From positions 933,001 to 997,000 of the forward strand of contig NC_083507.1 in assembly GCF_032362555.1 (NCBI RefSeq): DNA of 64,000 nt. The letters are read 5' to 3'. The notes under the pieces were generated by a model, which worked only from the letters and a program-made list of their open reading frames with translations, did no database searches and was not told the DNA's origin. Origin of the DNA: Amyelois transitella (lineage: Eukaryota > Arthropoda > Insecta > Lepidoptera > Pyralidae). Positions 17,697 to 64,000 of the stretch are shown in pieces (position 1 is the stretch's first letter; each line of letters starts with the position of its first letter). Both the position numbers and the translations under genes were made by a program.

Positions 17697-20600
17697 TCAG
17701 TATATTTTAATTTTTGTAAAACAAAATGGCGCATACCCATAGAAAGCCGGGAAACTAGTGTCGGTGTTGAACTGGAAATTCACTGGTGTTTTCGGCGACG
17801 CGCAACTGTAACTGAGATAGTCGTCCGACGCGTGGAGTTGCCTGCAAAACAATATTAAGTGATTAATTTAATATACAATAACACGATTAGTTTTTGACGA
17901 CAAAATGGCGGCGCCGATATAGTCCGCCCCCTATACTTCGATTGTCATCACATGTACATATATTTATACACATACATACATATAGTCACGGCTATATCCC
18001 TTGCGGGGTAAACAGAGCCAACTGTCTTCAAGACAATAGGTCACAGGTCTTGAAAACAGTTGCCTGAATGTGGTGGTTTCTTCACGAAGTTTTCCCTCAC
18101 CGTAAGCCAAGCAAACCCATTATCATAATCCTCAACTGACCTGTTTAGATTTGGCTCCGAAGCGCTTCTGGTGATCTTCGGCATTGCACGGAGCATGCAC
18201 TCGAGTGAGGCCAGTATCTGCCTGAACAGCGGCCTCTGCTCCCGGACAAACTTGATGCAGTCTTCGAAGAGCCTCTTCAGGGCTTGCGGCGCGTCCGCCC
18301 GCAGCCTTCTGGCGTCAGGCCGGAGGAAACCTCGACCCACAGACCACAGGATCTGAGGCATAGTTTGAATTAGCATGCAAAAAATATTAAATGTAATTTT
18401 AAATTTTCGAAATTTGAATTTTTGCAAGTACTTAAATTTTTGCTAATTTTTTTTTCTAAATAGATAATAACTACGCTATTTCTACATCAAACGGAACGTG
18501 TAGTGCGCGGACACAGTTATACAACTCAATCAGTGTTATTTGTCCCGTACACACCTACATACCCACACACACACATACAACGAGTTGTGTGACACCACGC
18601 TACCTGATATAACGAGTTGTGTGACATCACGATACCTGATATAACGAGTTGTGTGACACCACGATACCTGATATAACGAGTTGTGTGACATCACGACACC
18701 TGATATAACGAGTTGTGTGACACCATGCTACCTGATCCTTGTTGTTGAGATGCGCGTAGGGCAGCTCGGCGGCCATCAGCTCGTACAGCACGATGCCGTA
18801 CGCGTACACGTCCGAGCGGAACGTGTAGGGCGCCGGCACAGTTATACAACTCAATCAGTGTAATTTGTCCCGTACATATTCTACATACCCACTCACACAC
18901 ATATAACGAGTTGTGTGACATCACGATACCTGATATAACGAGTTGTGTGACATCACGATACCTGATATAACGAGTTGTGTGACACCACGATACCTGATAT
19001 AACGAGTTGTGTGACACCACGCTACCTGATATAACGAGTTGTGTGACACCACGCTACCTGATATAACGAGTTGTGTGACACCACGCTACCTGATATAACG
19101 AGTTGTGTGACACCACGCTACCTGAAACAACGAGTTGTGTGACACCACGCTACCTGATCCTTGTTGTTGAGATGCGCGTAGGGCAGCTCGCCGGCCATCA
19201 GCTCGTACAGCACGATGCCGTACGCGTACACGTCCGAGCGGAACGTGTAGGGCGCCGGCTCGTCCATGCGCACCACCTCGGGCGCCATCCACAGGATGGA
19301 GCCGGTGGGCTGCTGCCACTGCACGCCGCCCAGCGAGCTCGTCTCTGTATATATATATATATATATATACAGGGTGACATTTAATTCAACTGCATAAATT
19401 TAACTGTTAAGTGTACTCATCTAAATGATATTTAAAAACGTTAAAAGAAAAATATCGGTTCATATTTCAGAAAGTACGAAAAAAAAAATAAAAGTATCAA
19501 AATCCACGATCCTAAATACGTCATATCACCCAGGCCGGCGGAAAAGCGACGCGTAAGATTCAGAGGTCAACGACACAATTCATTCAGCTGAGCGATCTCG
19601 AAAACTCTGTACTTTACTTGATCTTGATACTAGAAAAATAATTTATTTTTCAGACATTTATTTACATGTTTAGTTTTAATTTCTTTTTTTAGTTATTGGT
19701 CTTTAATAAAGCGTGTGACGTAGTTGAGGGTTTTTTTAAATGTAAAAATGATGACGTTTAATTTAAATAAAAATAGGCCCAAACAGCTTAGAAGCATGGG
19801 TATAGTCTATGTTTATAAGGATGCAGTTGTTTTAAATGTCACCCTGCATACATATGACGATTGGGTCATACATGCCGATGAAATACTCATTGAGGCTAGG
19901 ATAGGTGAGTGTTTTTTTTTTTGTGTTGCGTTTACACACGGCTCGGGTGATACATACATACATACGGTTACGTCTATATCCCTTGCGGGGTAGACAGATT
20001 GAAAAGACTGATAGGCCACGTTCAGCTGTTTGGCTTAACGATAGAATTGAGATTCAAATAGTGACATGTTGCTAGCCTATCGCCTAAAAGAAGAATCCCA
20101 AGTTTGCAAGCCTATCCCTAAGTCGCCTTTTACGACATTCATGGGAAAGAGATGGAGTGGTCCTACTCTTTTTTGTACTGGTACCGGGAACCACACGGCA
20201 CGACCACTGATTCGAATTGAAAAATTCTTTTTGCATCGAATAGACCATTTATCGACAAAGACTTTAGGCTATATAATATCACGCTGCAACTATAAGTAGC
20301 AAAATAATAATGGAATATGTGAAAAAAACCGGGAAAAATTATTCATCCTTGAACTCTATCAATGATGCCCAAAATAATTATTCCACGCGGACGAAGTCGC
20401 GGGCACAGCTAGTATGCCGTGTAGTTTCCGGCATTTAAGAATAGAATCACTCCATATCTTTCCCATGGATGTCGTAAAAGGCGACTAAGTGTGGTGGGCA
20501 AGTCACTATGGAACGTGGCCTTTCAGTCTTTTCGACTCTGTATGTATGTTGTTATATATGTTATACTAGAGGCCGCCCGCGACTTCGTCCGCATGGAAAC

Positions 20601-23600
20601 CCTATCAATCCCGCGGGAACTCTGGGATAAAAAGTAGCCTATGTGTTATTCTGGGTCTTCAGCTACCTACATACCAAATTTCATGGTAATCGGTTCAGTA
20701 GTTTTTGCGTGAAAGAGTAACAAACATCCATACAAACTTTCGCCTTTATAATAGTAGTAGGATATTAGATGTGGGTATATGCATTGACTGTGGTAGTAAA
20801 CCGCACGTCTCACCTGACCACCGAACCTTCGCAGTCGCCAGGCCGAAGTCACCGATCTTGACGGACCAGTCGTCACGCAGAAATATGTTGTTCGATTTGA
20901 GGTCCCTGCAAAAAAGAAAGAAAATTTAAAAAAAAAATTGCCGTGTGCTTTTAGATACTCAGTATAGAAATTAAAAAAATAAAAATAAATAACCGTGTGC
21001 TTATAGATACTCAGTATGGTACCACTCCATATATATCCCATGGAGGTCGTAAAGGCTACTAAGGGCGATTGACGACCTGTCACTATTTGAACTAACTACA
21101 AAAAAAAAATGCATGTACATTTTTTTTTAAATTGATATGAGGTAATGTAATATTTATTATTTAGTTCAAAATATTAATTTTGTATGCCCAATGGCGTAAA
21201 ATTGACATTTTATTGGTACACAGGTTGACCCTGTGATAACCTATGTTCACAAAATAAACGATTTGATTTGAATCTCAACGGAGCGAGGAGCCTTCGCACC
21301 GTTGAGTTATAAAGGCAATGGAGGTCTCTTAAGTTGGTTGCCTGTCATCAGTATAAGTTTTAACTCTTGCTTCCTAGTATGAGTATGTAAAGAGAGGTCT
21401 TATTAATTCGGTTTTTCCTATCAATTACCAGTATAAGCTGAGCCTCAGTTTCATAGACCGACTATACAAAGACAGGTCCACTTGAATTGGTCCTACCTAT
21501 GTATGATATTCTTCGCGTGCAGATAGTCCATGCCCTGTGCCGTCTGCCTCGCCACGTCGATGAGGTACAGCATCGGGAACGGAGTCTCTAACACGTGAAG
21601 ATGCTGGTAGAGCGAGGAGCCTTCGCACAATAGAGTTATAACGGCAATAGAGGTCTTTTAAGTTGGTTGTCTATCACCACTATAAGCTGAACCCTCGCTT
21701 CATACTATGACCATAAAAAGACAGGTCTACTAAAACTGGTCCTCTCTAACCTGTGTATGATATTCTTCGCGTGCAGATAGTCCATGCCCTGTGCCGTCTG
21801 CCTCGCCACGTCGATGAGGTACAGCATCGGGAACGGAGTCTCTAACACGTGAAGATGCTGGTAGAGCGAGGAGCCTTCGCACCACTGCGTCACGATGGCC
21901 AGCGACGGTTTCGACACGCAGCCCATGAACAGCAGGATGTTGCAATGCCTCGTCTTGCGAAGAACTGCCACCTGAATGGGTGATAAAATTTTTTAAAATT
22001 TTAAACAAGATCGAGGAATAAATATGTATGAAGAAATCTTCATTTTCTTAAGCTCATCTTTCGCGTGGATATAGTAACAGGCGACTAAGGGATAGGCTTC
22101 AAAACTTGGGATTCTTCTTTCAGGTGATGGGCTAGCAACCTGTCATTATTCAAATCTGAATTTCATCATTCAGTTACGAGATGATCGTGAGCCTTTTGGT
22201 TTTTCGAAACTGTTGGCTTTGTCTTCCTCGTAAGGGATAAAAACGTGATTATATATTATGTTTAAGTGTATGTTATACATAAGTTCATATTACCTCATTT
22301 TTGAAAGCCTGCAACTGCGCAGGAGTCGGCGTTTTAACGTTCAGCGTCTTGACCGCGACGGGGCCGTGCCAATGCGCTTTGTATACTGTCCCGAAACTTC
22401 CAGAACCTATGAACATTTTTTTTAACTAAAATACAATTGTATATCATGTAAGAGCGTCGGTTATCGAATCGGTGGTTAAAATGCGTATGGCGCAAAATGG
22501 CACATGTTCGAATCCCACTTCCCACCATGTACATACATACATACATAAAATCACGCCTCTTTCCCGGCGGGGTAGGCAGAGACTACCTCTTTCCACTTGC
22601 CACGATCTATGCATACTTCCTTCGCTTCATCCACATTCATAACTCTCTTCATACAAACTCAGCGGTTTCGGGTACTTTTGACCTGACCCTTTACCAGGAT
22701 GTCCTTAATTTGATCAAGATACGTTCGTCTAGGTCTTCCCACTCCGACCTTTCCCTCCACACTCTCCTTGTATATCTGCTTAGTCAATCTGCGTTCATTC
22801 ATCCTCTCCACATGACCGAACCATCTTAACATACCCTTTTCTTTTCTTTTTTCGGCCATGTACCTCGACTATTTTCGAAGTTATGTACATTAGTTTGAAT
22901 ACTAACCGATGCTCTTACGGTGAGGGAAACATTGTAAGGAAACCTGCACATTCAGGCAGCTGGAGTATCCACACAGAGAGTGTTAAAACATACATACATA
23001 TGGTCACGTCTATATCCCTTGCGGAGTAGACAGAGCTAACGTTGCCGTTGTGCCGTGTGTTCCCCGCACCAATACAAAAAATAATAGGACCACTCTATCT
23101 CTTTCCCATGGATGTCGTAAAAGGCGACTAAGGGATAGGCTTACAAACTTGATATTCTTTTCTAGGCGATGGGCTAGCAACCTATTCGAATCTCAATTCT
23201 ATCATTAAGCCAAACAGCTGAACGTGGCCATACAGGTCTTTTCAAGACAGTTGTCTCTGTCTACCCCGCAAGGGATATACACGTGACCATATGTAATGTA
23301 CGTATCACCCGAGCCGTGTGTAACACCACACAAAAAAAAAAAAAAACACTCACCTATCCTAGCCCCAATGAGTATTTCATCGGCATGTATGACCCAATCG
23401 TCATAACTCTCCCTGGGTGACAGGGCGTTCTTCCAAGACTCGTCCGCCGACCTCGCCCTGGGCCTCCGCGGCCTCAGGGTCCCCGTGGGTGAGGCCTGAG
23501 TGCTTTGACTGTGCTGCTCCTTGTCGTCAGCGGCCGCTGTCGCGTTTTTGCATGTAAGATAGTTGGACGACTGCGGTGAGTTGGTGCTCTGTTGATGATA

Positions 23601-28650: not shown

Positions 28651-28997
28651 TTCTTTTCCTAATTATTTTTTATTTTTCTTTTCTTTGACTACCTACCTCA
28701 CGCAATGCCGCAAATGTTACCATATTTCGTTATTAGTTTCTACCATTTATATGTCAAAATTTAATCGATCGGTCAAGAATAATGTGAAAATGGCCTTGTA
28801 ATGTGATCCATTCATTTCATTCAATACCTCTATGATGTCTGTGGTCCAAAAATAAATATGTTTGTCACTGTCTAGAACTTCTTGTCAATGTCAAGTAAAT
28901 GAAAACAAATTCAAATAAGAAATAAACAAATTTATTAAAAACAGCAAACTGTCATAGCGATTTTTATCCCTAGATTTTTTTATTCACCATATTAACA
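28651..28997. promoter_or_regulatory. Bidirectional promoter between Raf and the zeste-like gene
   Basis: Only 347 bp separate the two start codons and no repeat lies between them. A shared promoter is the simplest reading. No core motif was identified with confidence. Confidence 0.55.
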
Positions 28998-46224: not shown

Positions 46225-49200
46225 ATGGATATCAGTGAAGGTAACATTATCAAAACTTATCATAACCTAGCTCCAACGAATACCTACTAATAAACACCCA
46301 AATAACTGTTAGTTCTAAAATGAATGTGCTGAAAAGTACAAAAATGCCTTAGTATATATTAAAGGTATCTATCAATACATAAAACACAAGTGTTTCGGGT
46401 AGTATTTGTTGAAATTTTAGGACAAAATATATTGAGGTTATGTTCCACTATGTGAACTATCTGGAAAGATTATTGTAGTCCCTATCTATCCAGATGACTA
46501 GGTAGAGACTACATCTTTTCACTGTGTCTATACTTCTTTGCAAATTTTCTACTTCCATTACTCTCTTCATGTGAGCTCATTAATATAGTCTGTATCAATG
46601 TAAAATACGAAATTTATTTCTTTAGGCACAACAACAGATGACTTGTGGACACCCTACAAGGAGTTGGTGTCAGTGGTAGAAGGATATTTAGCCCATGAAA
46701 GTGGCGGTGCTCCATATGCAGTTCACACCTTTGAGTCTCTGCTGCGACGGCACAAACAGACTTTCTTGTCTTTGTTTAAAAATCCTGTAAGTATTTTTAT
46801 TACACGAGCTTTACATACACTACTTTAATCCCAAAGAATTTGATAAAATAAATAAGCGAAGAATATTATTTTTTTACAAATCAAATGTACATACATACAT
46901 ACATACATAAAATCACGCCTCTTTCCCGGAGAGGTAGGCAGAGACTACCTCTTTCCACTTGCCACGATCTCTGCATACTTCTATCAAATCAAATGTCTTA
47001 TTTCTATATTAATTTTATTTTACAAATAGAATTTTTTTCAACTTTTTAAGGTGACTAATTTTTGTATCAATCAACCATGGGTGAAAAAAGAACAAAGCAC
47101 TTCTGATCTACAGTTATTATTGTAGTTATGTTGTTCATCAGAGAATTTGCTATTGAAGCTAATTTTGTCTAGTACACACTTCACTTAAACATATTCCTAA
47201 TGTATATGGCTACAAAATAATTTTTTTCTTGAGCAATAAAGATAATTTGTATTGTAAAACTGGTTTCCAAAATTTTGATAAATGTTTCATAAGACCTTTT
47301 TTCTAAAGCTTTTTTTAAACTAAAATCAGTTTTACTATACTGTGGGTTTGGCAACAGTGCAATGAATGAATTGTTGTGTCACTTCAGGCTAAGAATCCCG
47401 CAAGTCGAGATGAAATCAAAAGGGGCATCACTGAAGGTGTTAACTTGCCCAGCGTTGGCAGAACACTACTCTCCAAGGAGTTGGTGGACGAGGCTATCAT
47501 CATATCAGGTTAGTTTTTATTTCGTTGGCTTCAAGTTAACACTTTTCACCCTCAAATTTATAATAAAGGCGCCACATAAGTATAAGTATACAATATAATA
47601 AAATTACCCCAAAAAGTTAGTTAAATGTTTCCTAATGTATTCCAATTAATATTTCACTTGTATCACTTTCTTGTAGATGGTGTTAAGTTCTAAATTCAAG
47701 TGGGCTTCATTTATTCTGCAGCCCATTTGAATTAGTTGTTACAGCTACTTGCTAGTAAAGTGTAATTATTCTGAAGAAAAAATTGTAAAATTTTGCAGAC
47801 ATGTACAACGTGAACGAGTACCTGGCCCTGGAGCTGCTCCACACGGCGCAGCGGCAGTCGGGGCGGCACCCCGGCCTCCCTCGGGGGTTGGTCGCCGTTC
47901 TGCTCTACTACGACGGCCGCCGGTCGTTGCTCCAAGCGTTAAAAGAGTTAGTCATGGCCCGGGATGGAGTTTGCTGGTAACTATACCTTCTCAAATATAT
48001 CATATCTTGATCAAATTAAGGACGTCCTGGTGAAGGGTCAGGTCAAAAGTGCCCGAAACCGCCGAGCTTGCATGAAGAGAGTTATGAATGTGGATGAAGC
48101 AAAGGAAGTATGCAGGGATCGTGGCAAGTGGAAAGAGGTAGTCTCTGCCTACCCCTCCGGGAAAGAGGCGTGAGTTTATGTATGTATGTATGTATGTATA
48201 CCTTCTCTCACATATATTTGACGGCCTCTGTGGCTCAGCGGTAGTATGCTTGACTGTTTCCCTTATTCATGACCAGATATGTCTAAACGTTTACGTGTTG
48301 TGGGGTAGACGGAGCCAACTGTCATCAAAAGAATGAAAGGCTGAAATAGTGATAGGTTGCTGGCCCATCGCCTAAAAGAGGAATTCCAAGTATACAAGCC
48401 TATCCCTTAGTCGCGTTCACGACATCCGTGGGAAAGAGATGGAGTGGTCCTATGCTTTTTTCCATTGGTGCCGGGAACCACACGGCATAGATATGTCTAA
48501 TCTTCTCTATTCATATCAAATCAGAAAACCAGATTGAAGGAAAAACAAAAGGTACCTTTCATCTTGACAATAGTTTTTTGTTTTAATTAATTGACAAATA
48601 GCTGAAGTCGTCCATCAGTCTTTTCAGCACTGTTGGCTGTGTCTACCCAGCAAGGAATAGAGTCGTGAATTTATGTTTGTATATATTTTCATTGAGTATA
48701 ACTTCGTTTTTGTTTGCAGGACAATAAATGCACGAGAAGAGATAATCTCTTACGTGTCCCGATATGTAGAACAGTTAATATCGGATGGTCTACTTGGAAA
48801 TGTATTGGACGCTTTACGCCGTTACACGCTACAGGGCGAGCTGGAGTTACTACAGAACAATCGGGCGTTACCGCCTCAGAGGCAGCACGCGAGGCTTGTG
48901 GCTACCATAGAGAATACCAGGTATGCTAGTCTATGGTCTGAATAACTTGTTAAACGTTGTACACAGTTACTACAGAAATACCGAGTATTAACGCCTCAGA
49001 GACAGCACGCGAGGCTTGTGGCTACCATAGAGAATACCAGGTATGTCAGTCTATGGTCTGAATGATTTTTTAAGCTGTGTACACATTAACTATAGATCAA
49101 CCCAGCGTTACCGCCTCAGAGACAGCACGCGAGGCTTGTGGCTACCATAGAGAATACCAGGTATGTTAGTCTATGGTCTGAATGATTTGTTAAGCTGTAT

Positions 49201-52200
49201 ACACATTAACTATAGATCAACTGAGCATTACCGCCTCAGAGGCAGCACGCGAGGCTTGTGGCTACCATAGAGAATACCAGGTATGCTAGTCTATGGTCCG
49301 AATGATTTGTTAAACGTTGTACACAGTTACTACAGAAATACCGAGTATTAACGCCTCAGAGACAGCACGCGAGGCTTGTGGCTACCATAGAGAATACCAG
49401 GTATGTTAGTCTATGGTCCGAATGATTTGTTAAGCTGTATACACATTAACAAAGGCAAACAAATTGGTTTTACTAAACCATCAGGCAACATACTTTATTT
49501 ATATTTAATTAATTTTTTTATAAGTATATTTTAACGTTAACAGGCAAAGCCAGCTGGTATACATATGTACATATTATGTAGCAACGGTTGTCATAATTTG
49601 TTCCGTTAGCAAAATCATCGGACTTTTATTGTAAAATATATTTTCTTTAATTATTATTATATTATTAGTGCCTTTCATTTGATTATTTCTCTCCTCTTCA
49701 GTCCTACTTTCTTCTTTGAAGGAAAGTTGTAGGAAGTAAGGAAGTACATTCGAGAGCAAACTGCGTGTAACGTTTCTTGCCTATTGTAGGACCGATATGT
49801 AGCTAGTTGTTTATGGTACATAGCAAACTAGTTTTACTACAAAGTAACCATCATGCTTTGACGCCTCAGCAGCAACATGCAAGGCTAATGGCCACCATAG
49901 AGAATATAATTTTTTTTTCTATCTTTGGTTTGAATGCTTTATGATACGGCAGATGGTGCTATCGCCTTTTGCTATAATTGTTTTTAAGAACTGTGCTATG
50001 AAATGTTTTTTTTTCAAATATCATGTAGGTATATACTTCCTAGAATTACCACAGTGATAATGGTCTTGCCTCCCACTGACTAGGTCCCGAGGAGTTAGCG
50101 CGAGTTTTACTCGATCAAACACGCCGAGCGAGCGAGCGTACACGCGAATTTGTATGTGATTTGATCAGCGCCATCTAGTGGTAACGCTATGGCACTAATG
50201 CGATTTCATGCAAATTCGTGATAACTTGCTCGTAGTGTTTGATCGAGTGAAAAAAAAAATATTGTCATGTTTTTTATTTTTATTTTTTAATATTTGTATT
50301 TATTTCAGAAAATTACTTGCCGGCGTTGTCTTCGCGGCGTCAGCACAACGCGGTTTGGATAGAGATATCATGTTGAGACTTTTATCCGAGGTATGTGTTC
50401 CCGCCTATTTCTGCGTTTGTGCTAATTTAATGCCAGCAATTCTTCTGAAAAGGCTTCTTGTTTTATCGACAACGAAATTATAGGGGGGTCGAAAATAGCC
50501 TGAATTGCTTCGAGAAAAGGATGGTACGGCCGTGCCGCTTTTTTTGCTCGACTCGGCGGGAGCACTTACGTGCCCCCAGATAATGCAAATATGATGGAAT
50601 TAGGTATTTTTTTAATTGGTGCCTTGTGGTTCCCGGCACCTATAAAATCTGCCACTATGATAATTGAATCTCAATTCTATCATTTAGCCAAACATAATAG
50701 GCTATTACACTCTTTTTTGAAAACTGTTTTAAATCAATCCTGAGACTGTGTTATACCTATAGAATTTTTATTAAAATTTTTTGAAGCCGAAAAGTGCTCT
50801 AAAAACGATTTATTATTTATGATTTTGTATTTTCGCGCGAAAACGCCATCCGCCATGCTGTTTTGACTCGTGACGTCATACTTTTAGTAAACAATACAAA
50901 AAATAGGTTATGTTGGATTGGTTGTGTAATAATTTACCTATTATAATTGTGTATTGTAAGAGAATGTTTAATACAATAAATACTTACATCGCTGTTTTAA
51001 CATTTCTTAACTCAGCAGAACAGAAATCGGGATTGGACGCAAAAAATTTCGCCACCATCAACGTATTAATCCTCGGTAGATTTATATTGTCTGCTTTCAC
51101 AAAACCGTCTTCCATGATTCTATTAAATTATTAAAGAGTAAAAACCCAAAAATGTGATAGAAATTTTAAAATTTCAAAATAAACAGAGCCTGACATCATC
51201 AATATGTTTTCGATTCGATATTTGTTTACTAAAAGTATGACGTCACGTCAGTACCCAACATGGCGGATAGCGTTTTCGACTTTTGAAGAACAGATTAAAA
51301 AAGAGGATTTTTTAAATTGAATTATAAAATCCATATTGCACTTTTATGAATAATGATCGATGTTTTTCTTTTATTTTTTACAAAATCTATAAGATACGTG
51401 CATTTTTATATTTTTTTTTACATAGTGTAAAATAGCCTATTATGTGTATGATGTAAAAGCTTGTATTTTCAATATTGAAAACCAAACGAAAAAGTCATGT
51501 GCAAATTATTTATCTCTCTTTCTTTCTTAAAAATGTAATCTAAGCTTTGTTTTCTAGCAAACCACATCACCAAGCAAAGGGCCGACGGGCGCTTTGGATG
51601 AGATCTCTTTGGCATTGCATATGGCGCTGCTGTACGCTTTAGATTTGTCCGTTATACACGGGTAAGACATGTTATGTATTTATTTAGGTATTTTTTGTAC
51701 ATAGTTTAATTTACTCTTGACACAGTATATTGGATTGATCATGGTTACACATCCAGTTTTCATCACAAGAGCATCGGTTAGAAATGCATATAACTTAGGA
51801 AATAGTCATTGATAATTTTGGCCGAGTTGGGATTTAAACCTGCGTCTTTTATGCACATCACGCTTTATACTTTACCACCTTACCGTTTCGACCAACGACG
51901 TTGTTTAGTAAGAGTATGTTTTTTTCTTATGGTCCAATAAAAAGTTTATCTTATCTGTAATATATTTTCTTTTTAAATTATCTCATTCCACAGTCGCGAA
52001 GACGGCGAAGAATTAGCCAAAAAGCTACCACTAATCCAGGATCCAGATTTGATATCAGTATTACTCGACGAGCTTACACCAAATCCGAACCAAACCCAAG
52101 GGCAGGACGAGAAAGGCGGTGGGGTCAGAGCTTTATGTCAACTGGCGCTTGGATTGGCGCTAGCGGCGTTGAAGAGGGCGCCACAGTCGCTGCTGAGAAG

Positions 52201-55200
52201 ACCGCCACAGGATATAAAACCTGAGTTGTTGGATCAAGATGAAATGTTGGTCGATGCCGCTATAGATGGGAAGGTAATTAAGACTGTAACAATATTATTA
52301 TAAGGTAGGATTTAGGTTAGAAGTCTTGAAGAGGGCGCCACAGTCGCTGCTAAGAAGACTTCCACAGGATATAAAAGCTGAGTTGTTGGATCAAGATAAA
52401 ATGTTGGTCGATGCCGCTATAGATGGGAAGGTAATTTATACTGTAAGGTAGGATTAAGTAATGTGTTGAAGACATTTTTAAATATATACAGGACAAATTA
52501 CACAGATTGGGTAAATCTTGAAGTTACTTTAACACTTGTGTTAGGAGATACTTACTAACACCCTAAGACGCAGAATAAACTGTAGAACTAATGATTATTT
52601 TATTTTACAGGTATTCGAATACTTAGACGAAGCTATTCTGTCCACGGACTTCGTTTGCAAAGAGGAATATTACCAGCGGCGGTTACACAACCTTATAACG
52701 GATTTTATAGTGCTAATGCACTCTAAACTTATGGAGATGAGGGTCAAGTGAGTAGCAATTTTATTTAAAGTAGATAAAAGGCGCATGGGTTCGCCGTTTC
52801 CATTTTTTTTTTAGAATACCTTACAACAGGTCAGAAATGCATAAGATATAAAAACAAAACATATCGGTAAAATCACATAACAACGCCATCTAGCGCGAAT
52901 CGGTGGAACTACAACGAGTTCAATACATACCACGTTGCGTGTCCAATTCTAATAAAATCAGAGAAATTAATTAGATGGCGCTGTCGATAGACGATTGACA
53001 TTCCTCTTCGCTTTTTCCCACGGCACATTCGATCGGCTTTCCTAATTTTTTTAGCGCCATAACATACTACCTTAGAGAAGTCGGTCGGGTTTATTTTATT
53101 TTTGTACGAGATTTGTCATACAGGTGTATCACGTGGAGGGAGATCCTCTCAGTGGTTTACATCGTACCTTATTTTGTTTCAGGGCTGACGAAGCAGCAAG
53201 AGCGGTACAAATGTACGCAGCCGAAGGCATAGTGCCACCAGCCGGGGCCGGACAGAATAGAACAAGACTGGACGCGTTGCTGCGCTGTGTGGAGAGACTG
53301 TACTCGCACGACCCGCTCGGCCTCAGACACGATTACTGGCTCGCTTGCACTCAGAACGCGTCACATTCGGCTTCCTTCAGGTAATGTCACGTGGAACAAG
53401 TTATAGTGACGACGATAGGAGGGTGTAGTACCGACACAGAATAGAACAAGACTGGACGCGTTGCTGCGCTGTGTGGAGAGACTGTACTCGCACGACCCGC
53501 TCGGCCTCAGACACGATTACTGGCTCGCTTGCACTCAGAACGCGTCACATTCGGCTTCCTTCAGGTAATGTCACGTGGAACAAGTTATAGTGACGACGAT
53601 AGGAGGGTGTAGTACCGACACAGAATAGAACAAGACTGGACGCGTTGCTGCGCTGTGTGGAGAGACTGTACTCGCACGACCCGCTCGGCCTCAGACACGA
53701 TTACTGGCTCGCTTGCACTCAGAACGCGTCACATTCGGCTTCCTTCAGGTAATGTCACGTGGAACAAGTTATAGTGACGACGATAGGAGGGTGTAGTACC
53801 GACACAGAATAGAACAAGACTGGACGCGTTGCTGCGCTGTGTGGAGAGACTGTACTCGCACGACCCGCTCGGCCTCAGACACGATTACTGGCTCGCTTGC
53901 ACTCAGAACGCGTCACATTCGGCTTCCTTCAGGTAATGTCACGTGGAACAAGTTATAGTGACGGTGATAGGAGGGTGTAGTACCGACACAGAATAGAACA
54001 AGACTGGACGCGTTGCTGCGCTGTGTGGAGAGACTGTACTCGCACGACCCGCTCGGCCTCAGACACGATTACTGGCTCGCTTGCACTCAGAACGCGTCAC
54101 ATTCGGCTTCCTTCAGGTAATGTCACGTGGAACAAGTTATAGTGACGGTGATAGGAGGGTGTAGTACCGACACAGAATAGAACAAGACTGGACGCGTTGC
54201 TGCGCTGTGTGGAGAGACTGTACTCGCACGACCCGCTCGGCCTCAGACACGATTACTGGCTCGCTTGCACTCAGAACGCGTCACATTCGGCTTCCTTCAG
54301 GTAATGTCACGTGGAACAAGTTATAGTGACGACGATAGGAGGGTAAAACCGACTCAAAGTACGAGTAGAATAGACACCTATATTAGGTCATGTGGAGGAA
54401 TTGAGGATTGTGATGGAATGTTGAAAAGATAGGTAAACATGGCCACTTTTTTGCATAAATTATTTTGTCCCAATGTTCTTTGACAGAATGATCTAAGACA
54501 CAATTGATTTATGGCATTTGGATAAATGTGGCATAATTCACTTTTGCAGAGGTGCTTTAAATACTTATGCGTAAGCGAACGTGTCAAAGAACTTTATGCT
54601 TAAAAATCATTCTTTAGCTATAATATGGTATACTACATTACATTATGGCTTAAATTGTTTACGGTAATAGATCGAGTACCTTTCATGAACATAGTGAAGG
54701 TTAAGTCAAGAGTACCATAAATCAAGAAGCTTAGGAAATGTGTCGCGGAAAAATGTAGTTTCTGTCTTCTTTGGGAGAGACATGATCTTACGTTTCAAGC
54801 GTTATAATTTCGTACTATTTTATAAGAATAGCTCTCTTTCAAATTAAGGACCAAATTAAATACGACCTGGCAAAGGGTCAGGTCAAGAGTACCCGAAACC
54901 GCCGAGCTTGCATGATGAGAGTTATGAATGTGTATGAAGCGAAGGAAGTGTCCAGTGATCGTGGCAAGTGGAAAGATGTAGGCACTGTCTACCCCTCCGG
55001 GAAAGAGGCTTGATTTTATGTATGTATACAACCATACATACTCATTTTCCTAATGTTTTTTTTATTCTTGTTCTATCCAGGACGGGCAGCCGTGCAGCCA
55101 CACTATACAAGTTCGTCCGTCTGTCCGGGGAGTTGGTCTGTGCAGCCCTACTGCCCGCTTACCTGCTAGCCCTGGCCAGCTTGTGTGTAGCGCGCCACAC

Positions 55201-58200
55201 GTGGGCGCTGCTGGCCCGGCGGGACGCGCTGTCTGCCCACCACCTGCTGACCGCGCTGGCCAGATATCACAGGTATATACCGATGTCTGTCTGTCTGTGT
55301 GTCTGTAGCCCTGGCCAGCTTGTGTGTAGCGCGCCACACGTGGGCGCTGCTGGCCCGGCGGGACGCGCTGTCTGCCCACCACCTGCTGACCGCGCTGGCC
55401 AGATATCACAGGTATATACCGATGTCTGTCTGTCTGTGTGTCTGTAGCTCTGGCCAGCTTGTGTGTAGCGCGCCACACGTGGGCGCTGCTGGCCCGGCGG
55501 GACGCGCTGTCTGCCCACCACCTGCTGACCGCGCTGGCCAGATATCACAGGTATATACCGATGTCTGTCTGTCTGTGTGTCTGTAGCTCTGGCCAGCTTG
55601 TGTGTAGCGCGCCACACGTGGGCGCTGCTGGCCCGGCGGGACGCCCTGTCTGCCCACCACCTGCTGACCGCGCTGGCCAGATATCACAGGTATATACCGA
55701 TGTCTGTCTGTCTGTGTGTCTGTAGCTCTGGCCAGCTTGTGTGTAGCGCGCCACACGTGGGACCTGTAATGTAATTTCTACTTTCAAATTCAGATAAGTT
55801 TAACTAGCTTACCTTCAAGTTGAATAGAAGAAAATAACTTAATATGTATTTATGTTACAGTATTTTGGCCCTTCTCTTTGCCAAAGTTATTCAAAATTCA
55901 AATTTCAAAAATTCAAAATTTTTATTCATTACTATAAGGATATACTATATATCGCTTAATAATTGTCAAAACGTATGGTTTGACAACATTGGTTGACGTC
56001 AAATAAATTACTTAAAACTAAGTTTACTGCCGCTTCCAAGGCGTCAGTGCAGAAGAAGCGGTAACAAACTGTCTACACTGTCTAAACGGTTATCTGTGGA
56101 TATGTACATATATTTTTTTTCTATAGGTGCCGGATACCAACCAATACAAAAATAAGTACAGTAAGTGTTTTAAGTGAAATGAGTTTGATGATTGATGATT
56201 CCCCACAGCAACCTGCGCGCGGACCCGTCCCCGTTCTCGGAGCTTGCGCACGCGGCGTCGCTGGGCGCGTCCGCCGTCACCACGCCCGCCGCCCGCCCGG
56301 GCAAGCTGCTCGTCAGGCAAGAGGAGGTATTGTGTTGTTCGTCGTCTTTGATTTAAATCGAAATATATATATATATATATATATCTATACTAATATGATA
56401 AAGGTGAAGAGTTTCTTTGTTTTTTTTTTGGTTCAACGCGCTAATCTCAGGAACTATTGGTTCGCATTGAAAAATTATTTTTGTGTTGATTAGACCATTT
56501 ATCGAGAAAGGCTTTAGGCTATAAAAGCGGGGAAAATTATTCATACTTGAGGGCTTCAAAGGTGCCCGAAATAACTATTCCACGCGGACGAAGTCGCGGG
56601 CACAGCTAGTATATATATACTATACCCGCGATATATATGGAAGTATATATATTTATCCCACATTAAATTATTTATTTATTTTCCTATATATTTAGGTTAT
56701 ATTTAGTGATAGAAGATGTAGTTACAGGAATAGAAAAGGGTATGGTAAGTTGGTTTGGTCATGTGGAAAGGATGAATGAAAGCAGGTTGACTAAGCAGAT
56801 GTACAAAGAGAGTGTGGAGGGAAAGGTCGGAGTGGGAAGGCCTAGACGAACGTATCTTGATAAAATTAAGAACGTCCTGGCAAATGGTCAGGTCAAGAGT
56901 AGAATATATAACATTGACGTGACATTTAAAACAACTGCATCCTTTTAAACTTAGACTATACCCATGCTTCTGAGCCGTTTGAGCTTATTTTTATTTAAAT
57001 TAAAGGTCATCATTTTCACATTTAAAAAACCCTCAAAAACTACGTCTCACGCTTTATTAAAGATCAATACTACAAAAAGAAATTAAAACTAAACATGTAA
57101 ATGTCTTAAAAATAAATTATTTTTCTAGTATCAAGATCAAGTAAAGTACAGAGATGTCGAGATCGCTCAGCTGAATGAATTGTGTCGTTGACCTCTGAAT
57201 CTTACGCGTCGCTATTCCGCCGGCCGGGGTGATATGACGTGTTTAGGATCGTGGATTTTGGAACTTTAATTTTTTTCGTACTTTCTGAAATATGAACCGA
57301 TATTTTTCTTTTAACGTTTTTAAATATCCTTGTCGAGATTTTGTCGTCGAGAGTTGTCGAGATCGCTCAGCTGAATTAATTGTGTCGTTGACCTATGAAT
57401 CTTACGCGTCGCTTTTCCGCCGGTCGGGGTGATATGACGTATTTAGGATCGTGGATTTTGATACTTTTAGTTTTTTCGTACTTTCTGACATATGAACCGA
57501 TATTTTTCTTTTAACGTTTTTAAATATCCTTTAGATGAGTAAACTTTACAGTTAAATTTATGCAGTTGAATTAAAAGTCACCCTGTATATATAGGGAATG
57601 TTACGATGTGATAGAAGATGTAGTTACAGGAATAGAAAAGGGTATGGTAAGTTTATTCAGTCATGTGGAGAGGATGAATGAAAGCAGGTTGACTGAGCAG
57701 ATGTACAAGGAGTGTGTGGAGGGAAAGGTCGGAGTGGGAAGGCCTAGACGAACGTATCTTGATAAATATTAAGAACGTCCTGGCAAATGGTCAGGTCAAG
57801 AGTAGAATATATAACTACTATACAGGGTGACATTTAAAACAACTGCATCCTTTTAAACTTAGACTATACCCATGCTTCTGAGCCGTTGAGCCTATTTTTA
57901 TTTAAATTAAAGGTCATCATTTTCACATTTAAAAAACCCTCAAAAACTACGTCTCACGCTTTATAAAGATCAATACTACAAAAAGAAATTAAAACTAAAC
58001 ATGTAAATGTCTTAAAAATAAATTATTTTTCTAGTATCAAGATCAAGTAAAGAACAGAGATGTCGAGATCGCTCAGCTGAATGAATTGTGTCGTTGACCT
58101 CTGAATCTTACGCGTCGCTATTCCGCCGGCCGGGGTGATATGACGTGTTTAGGATCGTGGATTTTGGAACTTTAATTTTTTTCGTACTTTCTGAAATATG

Positions 58201-61200
58201 AACCGATATTTTTCTTTTAACGTTTTTAAATATCCTTTAGATGAGTACACTTAACAGTTAAATTTATGCAGTTGAATTAAAAGTCACCCTGTATATATCT
58301 GTTTCTCAGGTGGAAGCGATGATAGCGGCGTTGAAGTTGATAGCGGCTGTGGCGAGGGAAGACGAAGCCGCTTGCGCTAACATATGCGAGAATCTGCAGT
58401 GGGACGCCGTCAACGTTATGTTTGGTGAGCCATGTTCTTCTTCTTCCTTATGGCTTTAGTCCCGGTTGCATCCTCACCACTCTGGAGAGGAGCCCGGGGT
58501 ATGCCTTTGACCATGGATCCTGGATTGAGTGAGTCAGGTTTTTACATGAAGCGACTCCCGTCTGACCTTCGCAACCTTTGCAGGGGAACCCGTATTGGAT
58601 CGATCATGGTTACACATCCAGTTGCCTGAATGTGCAGGTTTCCTCACGATGTTTTCCCTTGCCGTGAGAGCATCGGTTAGTATTTTTAAATTCTAACCGA
58701 TGCTCGGCCTCTGCGGCGCAGCGGTAGTACGCTTGTCTGTGACACCGGAGGTCCCGGGTTCGAATCCCGGCCAGGGCATGATGAGAAAAGAACTTTTTCT
58801 GATTGGCCTGGGTTTTGGATGTTTATCTATATACTACATATTTATTACAAAATGTAGTATCGTTGAGTTGTAATCTCGTAACACAAGTTTCGTACTTACT
58901 TCCAGGCTAATTCAATCTGTGTAATTTGTCCCGTACATATTTATATTTATTTATTTTTTGTATTGGTGCCGGGAACCACGCGGCACCGTAAGAGCATCGG
59001 TTAGTATATCTTCAATTCTGAATTTGTCGATCAGGTCTGATCTGCTGCCACATCCCCATCCAGCTGAAGGCGGAGCTGTGCCTGACCCTGGGAGCCCTGG
59101 GGCGCACCGCGGGCACGGCGGGCCGCGTGTGGGCCGCGCTGGAGGCCGCCCGGCTGGTGGGGCCCGCGGCGCGCGCCCTCGACCACGAGCTGCAGGAGGT
59201 GAGGGGCGTCTCAACTGTAGCTGGTTGATTCTTAAACATACATATTGTCACGTGATTCTATGTATGTTTAAGAATCGAACAGCTGTGTAATGTATGTTTA
59301 AAAATCGAACAGCTGTGTAATGTATGTTTAAGAAACGAACAGCTGTGTAATGTATGTTTAAGAATCGAACATCTGTGTAGTGTATGGTTAAGAATCGAAC
59401 AGCTGTGTAATGTATGTTTAAGAATCAAACAGCTGTGTAGTGTATGTTTAAGAATCGAACAGCTGTGTAATGTATGTTTAAGAATCGAACAGCTGTGTAA
59501 TGTATGGTTAAGAATTAAACAGCTGTGTAATGTATGTTTAAGAATCGAACAGCTGTGTAGTGTATGTTTAAGAATCGAACAGCTGTGTAATGTATGTTTA
59601 AGAATCGAACAGCTGTGTAGTGTATGTTTAAGAATCGAACAGCTGTGTAATGTATGTTTAAGAATCAAACAGCTGTGTAGTGTATGTTTAAGAATCGAAC
59701 AGCTGTGTAGTGTATGTTTAAGAATCGAACAGCTGTGTAGTGTATGTTTAAGAATCGAACAGCCGTGTAGTGTATGGTTAAGAATCGAACAGCTGTGTAG
59801 TGTATGTTTAAGAATCGAACAGCTGTGTAGTGTATGTTTAAGAATCGAACAGCTGTGTAGTGTATGTTTAAGAATCGAACAGCTGTGTAGTGTATGTTTA
59901 AGAATCGAACAGCTGTGTAGTGTATGTTTAAGAATCGAACAGCTGTGTAGTGTATGTTTAAGAATCGAACAGCTGTGTAGTGTATGTTTAAGAATCGAAC
60001 AGCTGTGTAGTGTATGTTTAAGAATCGAACAGCTGTGTAGTGTATGTTTAAGAATCGAACAGCTGTGTAGTGTATGTTTAAGAATCGAACAGCTGTGTAG
60101 TGTATGTTTAAGAATCGAACAGCTGTGTAATGTATGTTTAAGAATCGAACAGCTGTGTAATGTATGTTTAAGAAGCGTCAAGGGATATAGACGTCTATAT
60201 CCCTTGCGGGATAGAGCTAACAGTCTTGAAATGACTGATAGGCCACGTTCAGCGAAATGCGAAATTTCATGAAGATTAGTTCAGTAGATTATGCGTGAAG
60301 AGAAAAAACAAGCAGATAAACTTACTTTCGCCTTCATAATATTGGTTAAGATTAATTTGTCGTAAACGTCTTTTGTGCATGACAATATTAGCTGGGATGA
60401 TTGTAAGATTGATTGATTTTAATTTATCAGTAATTTCTGTTATATCTATCTCATTAATAAACATTTTGCCTAATTTATCATATGTCCCATCTACAGGTGG
60501 AATGCCGCATGGAAGAGTACCCCCTATCCCGGGCGTTTCTGACCCTCCTGGACTCTCTGTGTGCGGCCGCGCCGCTGCCCCGGGCCCTGGGCGCGGGCGC
60601 GCGGCCCCCGGGGCTCGATCCCTACGTGCAGTACGTGCTCGACAAGCTGGCCTTGCCCGCGCCCCACAGACCCCACGCTAAGCCAACGGAGAAATGGCAG
60701 GTTAGTGGCCTTGTTTATAGAGCTAGAGATATAATTATGTTCTCTCCAACCTCATTATCAAGTTATCACACCTATGAAGTAGCAGGTTAGCTGATAACTC
60801 TATAGCTATGAATATGTGTCGCAACAGCCAATCACGGGACGCTATCAGCTAATAACAGCGAAGAGTCTTAATCGCGCAAGCAAAGATTTCTAGGATTGGA
60901 GCATATATACAACTTTCGACACAACGTCTTATACATATAAGCCTCTTTGTAACACGAGTCAAGTTAAAAGGTAGGTAAACAAAATTATTTTGATTGTGTG
61001 TATTTTCAGATACTATCCCTATGCTTCCGTCTATTCGCCCGCTGGCTCGACCAATACGAGCCAAGCGCGTCAGATTTCCCCCCGCCGGGAAGGGAACCTG
61101 ATACCAACCCGCCGCCCGGATTCAGACTGCTTTTACAACTACACACAAAGTCTGAGCTACTACGATTACTGCTGAATTCTCTGGATGAAACGCAGCAGTT

Positions 61201-64000
61201 GCTGGATAGCCAGCCTGATGGAAGAGTGAGTATTTCTTATTGTAAACTAGCGACCCGCCCCGGCTTCGCACGGGTGCAAAATTATAAATGTTATTATACA
61301 TAAAAACCTTCCTCTTGAATCACTCTACCTGTTACAAAAAACCGCATCAAAATCCGTTGCGTAATTTTAAAGATTTAAGCATACAGACAAACAGACTAAA
61401 ATAGCGACTTTGTTTTATACTATGTAGTGATGAAGAATAATAAAGTTTGCGATTTAGTCGGATTATAGTGAAGCATTTGATCGAATCAATTATAATGGAT
61501 GTTGTATCTAACAGATGATTTTTTGGTTTATCTGGAAAGTTATGTGAGTAACCTAATTTGTTCTTGTAAAAAATTAAGTAAACATTTCGCCATTGACCCT
61601 TTAATGCATTTAAGACGACGTAATTTAAAGGGACTCCGCAAGGTATTATTTTAAGACCGCTTCTTTTTTTTATGCATTTTTTCAATCATTCATTAGTTAT
61701 TTTTCTTTTATAGTTCATTTCCTTTCTATTTGTAGGAAAGTAAAAGATAATTTTTATATTTTCTCAGGTATACATAGAACAGTGTCTCATCAGCGTACTG
61801 CAAATATTAGAGAGAGCATTGACGTTAGAGCGGCCGCTAGTCAACGCAGCGTCAGAATCCGGTCGGGCTGTACTTATTGTCGGACTGTCCAAACTTATAC
61901 TTGGTATGTATCGTTATTTTGATATTATAATTCAATTACTTATTGAAATTTTTTGACTTACAATTTTATAATATTTATATGGGGTTAAGCCTGCAGAGAA
62001 AGAAACTTTCTGACGATGCGTATTATTTTATTAATGTCTGTCTGTTTTGCAAAAGATTGTTTGATATATTGATATTGCAAGCCTTGTAATTGTACTTATC
62101 GTTGTAAATTACTAACAGTGGAGGAAAGCACGGGTTATTTTAATATTTCTCACTATTAAAGATATACACAAAAATAAAGAGAAAATATTGGTATGCTTAT
62201 CCACATCCACACTAATAATAAAGAGGAAAGATTTGTATTTTTGTATGTTTGTGTGGAATAAACTCAAAAACTACTGGTCCGATTTTGTTAAAATTTGGCA
62301 CAGATATAGAATAGACCTTCAAAAGTGACATAGGCATAAATTTGTTTTGAAATAAATTTATTTCAAAATATAAAACACAAAAATATGTCCACCCGTGCGA
62401 AGCCGGCGCGGGCCGCTAGTAATGAATAAACTCAAAAACTATTGGACTGATTTTCACTGAATTTGGTACAAATAAAAAATAAACCTAAGGGACTAAAATA
62501 ACTTTATTTTCTGGAATTTCTCTCGGGGGCGAAGCCCTGGAAAAAATCTGGTCTTCCATATTTAAGTGGTTGCACTGCTGCGTTTCCTCTGCAGAGCAGT
62601 TTCTAGGCCCGTCACATGAATAATGCAAATATCAAGTCCTAACGTGGCAGAAATAGCCAATATTCTCTGAAGACCAATTTCAGAATTTGAAATTATTGCC
62701 CTTTGACATCCGATATCTTGTTCACAAAGCTGACAAATTAGAATTACATTTTAAATAAAAAAGTAATGCGAGCAAAACATCTGATGAGAAATTAGAAATT
62801 GGATTTTAATGAATTTAAATTTTGTGATATTTCGGCCTTGGGGTGGGTGTATCATAACGTCATCATAATAGGTTATCTTTTGTCTCCTAGCCCCAGAAGG
62901 CCCAGAGAGCCAAGACCGCCTGGTGACGTGCTGCCGCGTGCTGCAGCACGCCGCCACCCTGCCGTGCGCGTGCGCGCGTGCCGTGGCGCTGCTGCTGCGC
63001 GCGCTGCAGACCAGCTCCACGGCCGCCAGGCACCTGCTGGCGGCCGTCACACACCGCCACAGCTTGGCCAGGGACATCAGGTGACTGACACACACACACA
63101 TCGCGTGCTGTGGCGCTGCTGCTGCGCGCGCTGCAGACCAGCTCCACGGCCGCCAGGCACCTGCTGGCGGCCGTCACACACCGCCACAGCTTGGCCAGGG
63201 ACATCAGGTGACTGACACACACACACATCGCGTGCTGTGGCGCTGCTGCTGCGCGCGCTGCAGACCAGCTCCACGGCCGCCAGGCACCTGCTGGCGGCCG
63301 TCACACACCGCCACAGCTTGGCCAGGGACATCAGGTGACTGACACACACACACATCGCGTGCTGTGGCGCTGCTGCTGCGCGCGCTGCAGACCAGCTCCA
63401 CGGCCGCCAGGCACCTGCTGGCGGCCGTCACACACCGCCACAGCTTGGCCAGGGACATCAGGTGACTGACACACACACACATCGCGTGCTGTGGCGCTGC
63501 TGCTGCGCGCGCTGCAGACCAGCTCCACGGCCGCCAGGCACCTGCTGGCGGCCGTCACACACCGCCACAGCTTGGCCAGGGACATCAGGTGACTGACACA
63601 CACACACATCGCGTGCTGTGGCGCTGCTGCTGCGCGCGCTGCAGACCAGCTCCACGGCCGCCAGGCACCTGCTGGCGGCCGTCACACACCGCCACAGCTT
63701 GGCCAGGGACATCAGGTGACTGACACACACACACATCGCGTGCTGTGGCGCTGCTGCTGCGCGCGCTGCAGACCAGCTCCACGGCCGCCAGGCACCTGCT
63801 GGCGGCCGTCACACACCGCCACAGCTTGGCCAGGGACATCAGGTGACTGACACACACACACATCGCGTGCTGTGGCGCTGCTGCTGCGCGCGCTGCAGAC
63901 CAGCTCCACGGCCGCCAGGCACCTGCTGGCGGCCGTCACACACCGCCACAGCTTGGCCAGGGACATCAGGTGACTGACACACACACACATCGCGTGCTGT
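46225..64000 (+). CDS. Nup205: Nuclear pore protein Nup205, first 18 exons (runs off the right edge)
   Basis: Exons: 46225-46240, 46626-46786, 47388-47508, 47799-47976, 48720-48920, 50309-50390, 51558-51661, 51994-52273, 52611-52747, 53183-53380, 55081-55272, 56209-56326, 58310-58424, 59035-59198, 60497-60700, 61010-61225, 61768-61903, 62891-63080. They give 937 codons plus 2 nt in continuous phase, about half of a typical 2000-residue Nup205. Diagnostic stretches: LWTPYKELV with SLFKNPA, GLPRGLVAVLLYYDG, EEYYQRRLHNLITDF (seen as EEYYQRR), LIEVECRMEEYPLSRAF-type motif (VECRMEEYPLSRAF), LGAGARPPGLDPYVQYV. Nup205 is an alpha-solenoid scaffold of the inner ring. Exons 5, 8, 10, 11 and 18 each have tandem partial copies that include the 5' splice site. 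Later exons (12-15, 18) are far more GC-rich than exons 6-9. Confidence 0.93.
46885..46985 (-). mobile_element. LINE 3' fragment (family L)
   Basis: (CATA)n, AAATCACGCCTCTTTCCC to GATCTCTGCATACTT. A more decayed reversed piece lies at about 46490-46590. Confidence 0.75.
48005..48205 (+). mobile_element. LINE 3' fragment (family L)
   Basis: ATCTTGATCAAATTAAGGAC to AAAGAGGCGTGAGTTTATG and (TATG)n. It begins about 28 nt after the Nup205 exon 4 donor and is open in frame from YLDQIKDVLVKGQVK. Confidence 0.85.
48290..48490 (-). mobile_element. SINE-1 copy
   Basis: Reverse: GTGGGGTAGACGGAGCC, GGCCCATCGCCTAAAAG, TGGTGCCGGGAACCACAC. A short SINE-2 head (48222-48255) precedes it and a forward 3' piece (48600-48680) follows. 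Confidence 0.78.
48846..49450 (+). repeat. 120-bp tandem array of the end of Nup205 exon 5
   Basis: Five exon ends at 48920, 49040, 49160, 49280 and 49400, each AATACCAG|GTATG. Each unit is about 65 nt of exon plus 55 nt of intron start. Junctions read TACTACAG or AACTATAG followed by the exon piece. Copies 2 and 5 share one junction type, copies 3 and 4 another, so the array is somewhat old and rearranged. A decayed sixth piece is near 49861-49910. The copies contain in-frame stops if spliced in. Confidence 0.92.
50109..50249. mobile_element. Palindromic MITE
   Basis: ACTCGATCAAACAC at the left faces GTGTTTGATCGAGT at the right, with inner arms CGCGAATTTG and CAAATTCGTG. About 140 bp with roughly 40-bp imperfect TIRs, in Nup205 intron 5 just upstream of exon 6. 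Confidence 0.75.
50618..50691 (+). mobile_element. SINE-1 fragment cut by the next element
   Basis: GGTGCCTTGTGGTTCCCGGC, then after a deletion CAATTCTATCATTTAGCC. It stops where the long-TIR element starts. Confidence 0.6.
50692..51446. mobile_element. Long-TIR DNA element, about 0.75 kb
   Basis: Outer ends ATAATAGGCTATTACACT and AGTGTAAAATAGCCTATTAT are inverted. Inner arms AACGCCATCCGCCATG and CATGGCGGATAGCGTT, and GACGTCATACTTTTAGTAAA and TTTACTAAAAGTATGACGTC, are also inverted. A 74-codon open frame (50910-51134) in the middle has no recognised domain. Non-autonomous; the superfamily was not assigned. Confidence 0.75.
51730..51900 (+). mobile_element. SINE-3 3' half
   Basis: GATTGATCATGGTTACACATC, AAGAGCATCGGTTAG and the reversed tRNA-like part (CACCTTACCGTTTCGACC) in Nup205 intron 7. 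Confidence 0.7.
52169..52440 (+). repeat. 157-bp tandem duplication of the end of Nup205 exon 8
   Basis: The last 105 nt of exon 8 (52169-52273) recur at 52326-52430 with about four substitutions, again followed by GTAATT. The unit carries the donor but no acceptor. Confidence 0.92.
53256..54345 (+). repeat. 184-bp tandem array of the end of Nup205 exon 10
   Basis: Exon ends at 53380, 53564, 53748, 53932, 54116 and 54300. Each extra unit is 59 nt of intron start (GTAATGTCACG to CCGACACAG) plus 125 nt of exon end. The five extra copies are almost identical; only GACGACGATAG against GACGGTGATAG separates them, so expansion was recent. The exon piece is 125 nt, not a multiple of three. Confidence 0.95.
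54840..55030 (+). mobile_element. LINE 3' fragment (family L)
   Basis: AAATTAAGGACCAAATTAA to AAAGAGGCTTGATTTTATG and TATG tail, about 50 bp upstream of Nup205 exon 11. An older degenerate piece lies at 54665-54790. Confidence 0.78.
55169..55762 (+). repeat. 139-bp tandem array of the end of Nup205 exon 11
   Basis: Exon ends at 55272, 55411, 55550 and 55689 plus a truncated fifth unit. Each unit is a 36-nt GT...TAG segment, pyrimidine/purine alternating (TCTG)n, and 103 nt of exon end. The first junction keeps TAGCCCTGG of the exon; later ones read TAGCTCTGG, which shows the order of expansion. Units are otherwise nearly identical. Confidence 0.95.
55893..56085. repeat. Dispersed repeat E
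   Basis: AATTCAAAATTTTTATTC, GCTTAATAATTGTCAAAAC and CGCTTCCAAGGCGTCAGTG, close to the copy at 9522-9735. Confidence 0.7.
56384..56609 (+). mobile_element. Non-autonomous Helitron (family H1) in a (TA)n tract
   Basis: TC start within TATATATATC and CACAGCTAG end with hairpin, in Nup205 intron 12. It has an internal deletion relative to the 709 copy. Confidence 0.85.
56925..57585 (+). mobile_element. MITE-1, copy 2 (internally duplicated)
   Basis: The left TIR is damaged (GACGTGACATTTAAAAC), the right TIR is intact (AAAGTCACCCTG). The stretch GTCGAGATCGCTCAGCTGAA and its flank occurs twice inside. Confidence 0.85.
57823..58291 (+). mobile_element. MITE-1, copy 3, at a 3' splice site
   Basis: 469 bp, both TIRs intact (CAGGGTGACATTTAAAAC and TTAAAAGTCACCCTG), flanked by TATA on both sides. 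Its right end is only 18 bp from the start of Nup205 exon 13, so the branch point must lie in or beside the element. Confidence 0.9.
58433..58700 (+). mobile_element. SINE-3 body
   Basis: ATGGCTTTAGTCCCGGTTGC to CGTGAGAGCATCGGTTAG. It starts 8 nt after the Nup205 exon 13 donor and is followed by SINE-2. Confidence 0.82.
58704..58947 (+). mobile_element. SINE-2, complete, with tRNA-like promoter
   Basis: The head (58706-58775) has the A-box region TGCGGCGCAGCGGTAGTACG and a perfect B-box GGTTCGAATCCC. The body is CTGATTGGCCTGGGTTTTGG and the tail GTGTAATTTGTCCCG. This is the most intact SINE-2 copy in the window and the one that could be transcribed by RNA polymerase III. Confidence 0.88.
59252..60175. 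repeat. 30-bp minisatellite, about 31 copies
   Basis: Unit GAATCGAACAGCTGTGTAGT plus GTATGTTTAA. Because 30 is a multiple of three, the minus strand stays open for 307 codons as a 10-residue repeat (LKHTLHSCSI). The left half mixes TGTAA and TGTAG variants, while the right half is nearly uniform TGTAG, so homogenisation is recent there. Both ends adjoin SINE-1-like words (CACGTGATTCTATG left, ATAGACGTCTATATCCC right). Lies in Nup205 intron 14. Confidence 0.95.
60183..60255 (-). mobile_element. SINE-1 3' fragment
   Basis: ATATCCCTTGCGGGATAGAG to GATAGGCCACGTTCAGC, reversed, abutting the minisatellite. Confidence 0.72.
61247..61430 (-). mobile_element. Non-autonomous Helitron (family H3)
   Basis: 184 bp, reversed, CTAG at 61247 next to the GC-rich hairpin (GACCCGCCCCGGCTTCGCAC), TC at 61429-61430. 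Same length as the copy at 40539. It begins 22 nt after the Nup205 exon 16 donor. Confidence 0.9.
62206..62419 (+). mobile_element. Non-autonomous Helitron (family H4)
   Basis: TC start (TCCACACTAATAATAAAG), 3' hairpin (CACCCGTGCGAAGCCGGCG) then GGCCGCTAG. A second, older related piece follows to about 62545 (GGGGGCGAAGCCCTGG). Confidence 0.85.
62977..64000 (+). repeat. 127-bp tandem array of the end of Nup205 exon 18 (continues past the window)
   Basis: Exon ends at 63080, 63207, 63334, 63461, 63588, 63715, 63842 and 63969, each GACATCAG|GTGACTG. Each unit is the intron start with (CA)n and about 100 nt of exon end. Copies after the first are essentially identical. The original exon reads CGTGCCGTGGCGC, the copies CGTGCTGTGGCGC. 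The array is cut by the right edge. Confidence 0.95.

Follow-up and report, generated by a model that had tools for sequence, protein, structure and literature searches.

The closest described relative of the structures analyzed here is a minisatellite of the human IFI6 gene, whose units measure 12 bp. It is a tandem repeat across an exon-intron junction with a donor in each unit, two downstream units of which are used as donors (PMC4526556), and, on the part of that report describing the repeat, it can be regarded as a single-gene precedent for donor arrays. A related process is the gain of introns by tandem duplication, in which a new intron arises inside an exon from a duplicated AGGT (Hellsten 2011; PMC3443670, PMC2891723, PMC4974935). 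Internal tandem repeats have also been found to alter human gene structure, with minisatellite expansion changing both exons and introns (PMC2812944); these are paralogues from human segmental duplications, and the section consulted describes no donor bias. Our literature search, which covered open-licence papers and is therefore weak evidence of absence, found no report of recurrent donor-spanning arrays.

We analyzed a 64,000-nucleotide stretch of the Amyelois transitella genome (hereafter the window; C3:933001-997000 of an assembly of 327 Mb in 33 contigs) together with additional sequence described below. Both features of the IFI6 repeat, the position across the junction and the donor in each unit, were found. 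However, whereas the IFI6 account concerns one gene and short units, the donor copies described here occur in at least five genes, in many unrelated units of 32-184 bp, and use of their later donors would mostly break the reading frame. In both these copies and the published routes of intron gain, exon sequence containing a splice motif is tandemly duplicated nearby, and the duplication is neutralized by splicing. The copies differ, as far as those routes are set out in the sources cited, in that they extend an intron already present, from its 5' end, and need no new boundary.

Copies of exon ends in Raf and Nup205

Raf lies on the minus strand at 18.1-28.6 kb of the window, and Nup205 on the plus strand from 46.6 kb, past the window end, to about 82 kb (window numbering continued). 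Nup205 exons joined via the first donor of each array matched the Nup192/205 family (PF11894, E 1.7e-96) and, among PDB entries, vertebrate NUP205 (E 1e-67); the alignment to Nup205 was continuous. The joined Raf exons matched RBD, C1 and kinase domains. Introns past the arrays have their own acceptors, and the joined protein is continuous. Exon numbers are those of the original prediction, which fit if one unlisted first Nup205 exon is counted. The parent exons, in window coordinates, are as follows.

19154..19344, minus strand: Raf exon 9, donor CAG|GTAGCG
21751..21971, minus strand: Raf exon 7
23354..23588, minus strand: Raf exon 5
48720..48920, plus strand: Nup205 exon 5, donor CAG|GTATGC
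51994..52273, plus strand: Nup205 exon 8, donor AAG|GTAATT
53183..53380, plus strand: Nup205 exon 10, donor CAG|GTAATG
55081..55272, plus strand: Nup205 exon 11, donor CAG|GTATAT
62891..63080, plus strand: Nup205 exon 18, donor CAG|GTGACT

The original prediction had placed copies of exon 3' ends with their donors at eight loci, in Raf (exons 5, 7 and 9) and Nup205 (exons 5, 8, 10, 11 and 18). All eight were confirmed.

18901..19158, minus strand: tandem array of 32-bp units immediately downstream of Raf exon 9; CAG|GTA donor in every unit
18575..18837, minus strand: second copy of the Raf exon 9 end with donor (exon end 18732-18837) and further 32-bp units (18575-18736); 18575-18837 matches 18997-19259
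21390..21628, minus strand: copy of the Raf exon 7 end, 132 nt (exon part about 21497-21628), with donor and diverged intron start; 21390-21628 matches 21646-21882 at a spacing of about 254-256 bp, and a third, partial copy, of intron sequence, lies at 21281-21400
19853..20204, plus strand: dispersed copy in inverted orientation within intron 8, comprising the 3'-terminal 52 nt of Raf exon 5 with donor and intron; matches 23405-23047
48845..49445, plus strand: 120-bp x5.0 array of Nup205 exon 5; unit of 76 nt exon and 44 nt intron
52169..52446, plus strand: Nup205 exon 8 end with donor and one copy; 52169-52289 and 52326-52446, spacing 157 bp, 94% identical
53252..54344, plus strand: 184-bp x5.9 array of Nup205 exon 10; unit of 129 nt exon and 55 nt intron
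55167..55761, plus strand: 139-bp x4.3 array of Nup205 exon 11; unit of 106 nt exon and 33 nt intron
62975..64000, on to 66522, plus strand: 127-bp array of Nup205 exon 18; unit of 106 nt exon and 21 nt intron

Each copy consists of an exon 3' end, the splice donor and some intron, placed downstream of the exon, and the units, which follow one another head to tail and range from tens to about 200 bp, resemble those of a minisatellite or VNTR. The copied exon part lies at the exon 3' end as predicted, but its range is 52-132 nt rather than 50-125 nt: 76, 105, 129, 106 and 106 nt for Nup205 exons 5, 8, 10, 11 and 18, and, from the coordinates, 106, 132 and 52 nt for Raf exons 9, 7 and 5. On the intron side the copies end 21-108 nt past the donor, at no fixed point. 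In agreement with the prediction, the parent 3' splice site is included at none of the eight window loci, and none of the eight contains a whole exon with both splice sites, as in tandem or mutually exclusive exon duplication. The 127-bp array, with 8.1 copies inside the window and 27.9 in full (62975-66522), occupies most of its intron.

Divergence between copies extends from about 0.1% (127-bp array) up to about 14% (Raf exon 7 and the coronin copy listed below), and units of the 120-bp array differ by 12-13%. This wide range among loci speaks for separate events, as had been proposed from the unit lengths, spread over a long time, and the duplication process is likely to be continuing. Assemblies do err at near-perfect multi-copy arrays. 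Nevertheless, an assembly artefact is extremely unlikely, given that copies bear their own substitutions, as in the 120-bp array, and that diverged, inverted and interrupted cases are found, on two contigs.

Only the 120-bp array ends with a whole unit, with 1 bp of seam homology; the other arrays end mid-unit. We claim no end-joining pathway on the basis of seam microhomology, because the test is constructed so that left edges mismatch. The copy of Raf exon 5, which is inverted, is rich in transposon-like sequence and may have been carried by a transposon instead of arising by tandem duplication. A 30-bp x30.5 array at 59261-60174 lies wholly within a Nup205 intron, starting about 60 nt past a donor, and is an intron-only minisatellite. 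Around the donor of the 120-bp units, CCATAGA...TCTATGG and ATACCAGGTAT form inverted repeats that could fold, and other arrays show GGTATATACC and GGTAAATATACC; such hairpins or palindromes at donors were seen by eye in three units.

Copies beyond the window and the choice of splice site

Further copies were found in sequence outside the window (coordinates left of it are negative).

Window 72163-72858: Nup205 donor-spanning array, 118 bp x6
Window 79038-80642: Nup205 donor-spanning array of roughly 163 bp, 10 donors
Window -94155..-93952: exon of a phosphatase gene with donor-spanning copies, same contig (PF00782 matched the gene's other exons)
Contig C8 39336-39813, minus strand: exon with a donor-spanning array, 139 bp x3.4
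Contig C8 47310-47442, minus strand: coronin exon (PDB coronin-1C, E 1.7e-34) with a donor-spanning copy spaced 203 bp
Window -21904..-21730: third gene, with a short degenerate donor copy of 24 bp (-21747..-21724)
Window -27175..-26347: acceptor-spanning array, 60 bp x13.8, 14 copies of TTCAG|ACTGACAGCG

The last of these lies 26 kb left of the window and shows that, beyond the window, a 3' splice site can be copied as well, contrary to the absolute claim made from the eight loci. The gene containing this array had no Pfam match and may resemble NRF6-type acyltransferases.

Reading through the arrays revealed that, in 11 of the 12 donor loci tested, every later donor leads to a frameshift or a stop. 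Every later donor gave a stop at nine of the 12; at two others, the 139-bp array and Raf exon 9, the second donor shifted the frame with no stop inside. The exception is the 163-bp Nup205 array (79038-80642), in which donors 2 and 3 both maintain an open reading frame; forms longer by 51 and 102 amino acids are possible there. Three upstream acceptors of the acceptor array were read, and all three gave a stop; the last of the 14 keeps the frame. Because the frame is broken by later donors at 11 of the 12 loci, the exon-proximal donor must be used. Reading frame and protein continuity together point to first-donor use, and the copies are predicted to leave the transcript with the intron.

The exon-proximal site must thus be used at both kinds of edge, and it is the first to be transcribed at donors and the last at the acceptor array, indicating that "first come, first served" is not the whole rule; nearness to the exon fits splice-site choice at donor and acceptor arrays alike. 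In cis-competition experiments of the 1980s, globin minigenes with duplicated splice sites reportedly addressed which of two identical sites is used. Those constructs were engineered, whereas the present arrays arose naturally and contain as many as 28 near-identical donors or 14 acceptors. They offer natural tests of splice choice, as only the first of the 28 donors keeps the Nup205 frame and, among the acceptors read, only the last of the 14 does.

Excess of donor-spanning duplications

The placement of local duplications was measured in 344 kb from three contigs, comprising the window, its 100-kb flanks on both sides, and blocks of 50 kb from C8 and 30 kb from C15. Exons came from our own simple codon and splice-site predictor trained on the window, not from annotation. 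A local duplication was defined as a match within 3 kb, of at least 35 bp and at least 80% identity, not shared with distant places. A predicted exon was classed as a transposon when at least 30% of its sequence recurred in far copies. Exons predicted within arrays were removed as decoys, and three parent exons lost in this way were restored for the final counts. Two contigs gave 29 clusters and three gave 28, because more sequence was masked; the 30-kb C15 block contained no clusters, but it has few exons.

We observed 28 local non-transposon clusters, 12 spanning a donor, one spanning an acceptor and 15 others, among them one exon-internal piece and one overlapping a predicted exon read as a transposon. 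Raf exon 7 had been labeled internal by the automatic rule because of its diverged intron part, but its match does cross the donor. Random placement is expected to give 1.06 donor and 1.11 acceptor clusters when uniform, and 1.61 and 1.56 when GC-matched; 12 donor clusters were reached in 0 of 2000 and 0 of 3000 simulations. Chance placement, already doubted in the original prediction, is accordingly disfavored. When the window is excluded, 19 clusters remain, of which 5 are donor-spanning against 0.5-0.6 expected; with Nup205 excluded as well, the figure is 3 of 16 against 0.4-0.5 (P 0.005-0.015). The latter figure is the cautious one, because the window was picked for the feature and Nup205 supplies 7 of the 12 donor clusters, so that the smaller P values overstate independence.

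Counted by exon, donor-spanning and acceptor-spanning copies stand at 14:1 (two-sided binomial P about 0.001), the 14 including two cases outside the 12 clusters, Raf exon 5 (inverted and more than 3 kb away) and the 24-bp copy of the third gene. An acceptor overlap at window -14804 was set aside as a transposon (its 104-bp unit carries sequence of dispersed families); if it is counted, the ratio becomes 14:2 and P, worked out by hand, about 0.004. Among clusters outside both the window and Nup205, donors and acceptors stand at 3:1, which alone is non-significant. The predicted bias to 5' splice sites is real in this sample and extends beyond the window, but its absolute form, without acceptors, does not survive the 60-bp array.

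These counts and the reading frames bear on the view that the excess is pure survivorship. Duplication would then be even, with acceptor-spanning and exon-internal cases lost as protein-breaking and donor cases persisting since the first donor wins. The 14:1 ratio and the 11 of 12 loci at which the first donor keeps the frame and later ones break it agree with this view. However, a splicing filter alone, removing all acceptor-spanning and exon-internal duplications, predicts that 4.3% (uniform) or 7.1% (GC-matched) of the remainder span a donor, against the 12 of 27 seen. The filter-only P is 4e-10 for all clusters, 1.6e-4 outside the window and 6e-3 outside the window and Nup205; the GC-matched values are 1e-7, 3e-4 and 0.015. 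Furthermore, the single acceptor cluster equals the even-placement expectation (1.1), so acceptors are not visibly depleted relative to the noncoding background, and donor-spanning clusters exceed purely noncoding ones per available base. We consider pure survivorship unlikely. The tolerance proposed in the original prediction, that the first donor wins, accounts for the survival of the genes but not for the donor excess over noncoding clusters.

The explanation that we favor, with confidence evenly balanced, is recurrent local tandem duplication, favored at exon ends and tolerated since the exon-proximal donor is used. Ordinary genomic DNA, comprising exon 3' end, donor and intron start, would be copied to positions just beyond the exon, for the most part in head-to-tail order, at a birth rate that would be higher at exon ends. 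The arrays would then enlarge by unequal exchange or slippage, and most acceptor-spanning and exon-internal duplications would be lost to selection. The copies would be tolerated, the donor nearest the exon being used and the copies leaving as intron. If tandem duplications do arise preferentially at exon ends, introns can grow by a route whose source is still visible.

The donor-specific excess, with acceptor-spanning copies at background level only, would also be expected if the copies arose through transcription- or splicing-linked events at 5' splice sites (R-loops, paused polymerase, or template switching on splicing intermediates). Such an origin is very unlikely, considering that the copies are contiguous genomic exon and intron and that their scattered intron-side edges mark no fixed point past the donor.

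Array exons do not have stronger donors than other exons (P 0.46). The GC content of the last 100 nt is 0.60 in array exons and 0.53 in the others (P 0.027, one of six features, with Raf exon 5 placed among non-array exons). A difference in GC at the intron start (P 0.013) was discarded as circular, because the arrays themselves place exon copies there.

Decoy cores and wider scans

In seven arrays, 3 of 292 decoy columns from -40 to +6 around the donor vary, compared with 57 of 698 elsewhere (Fisher 3e-6, columns taken as independent), and GT is kept at every decoy donor inspected. Both observations speak for the idea that donor arrays are a selected splicing device, in which copied exon ends and 5' splice sites are kept as rows of decoys that bind U1 snRNP and strengthen exon definition, and so outlast other duplications. 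However, the low variation comes from the 120-bp and 163-bp arrays, the count for the latter is inflated by length variants, and a rotation test that keeps variable columns clustered gave a one-sided P of 0.024, with no single array significant. Array introns also differ greatly in length, one being about 340 bp. We therefore regard a selected device as quite improbable; if true, it would account for the donor-spanning excess as well as for the scarcity of variation in decoy cores, and introns would grow from their 5' ends.

Whole-genome Pfam scans for myosin head (79 matches), kinesin (86) and PK_Tyr_Ser-Thr (at least 156), inspected by eye, gave no clear exon-end arrays elsewhere, but by a method that also missed the known Nup205 and Raf copies, so that this negative carries no weight. 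In the positive controls, PF11894 gave 6 matches with no Nup205 copies among them, and with PF07714 the matches listed included Raf exons 7 and 9 and none of the copies of either. The only repeated series, again among the matches listed, was one of four successive myosin-head matches covering about positions 362-436 at C12:10167187-10168555, which probably corresponds to the cluster of alternative exons known from muscle myosin. Overlapping pairs of kinesin matches were seen at C11:5604171-5604550 and C4:7067781-7068464.
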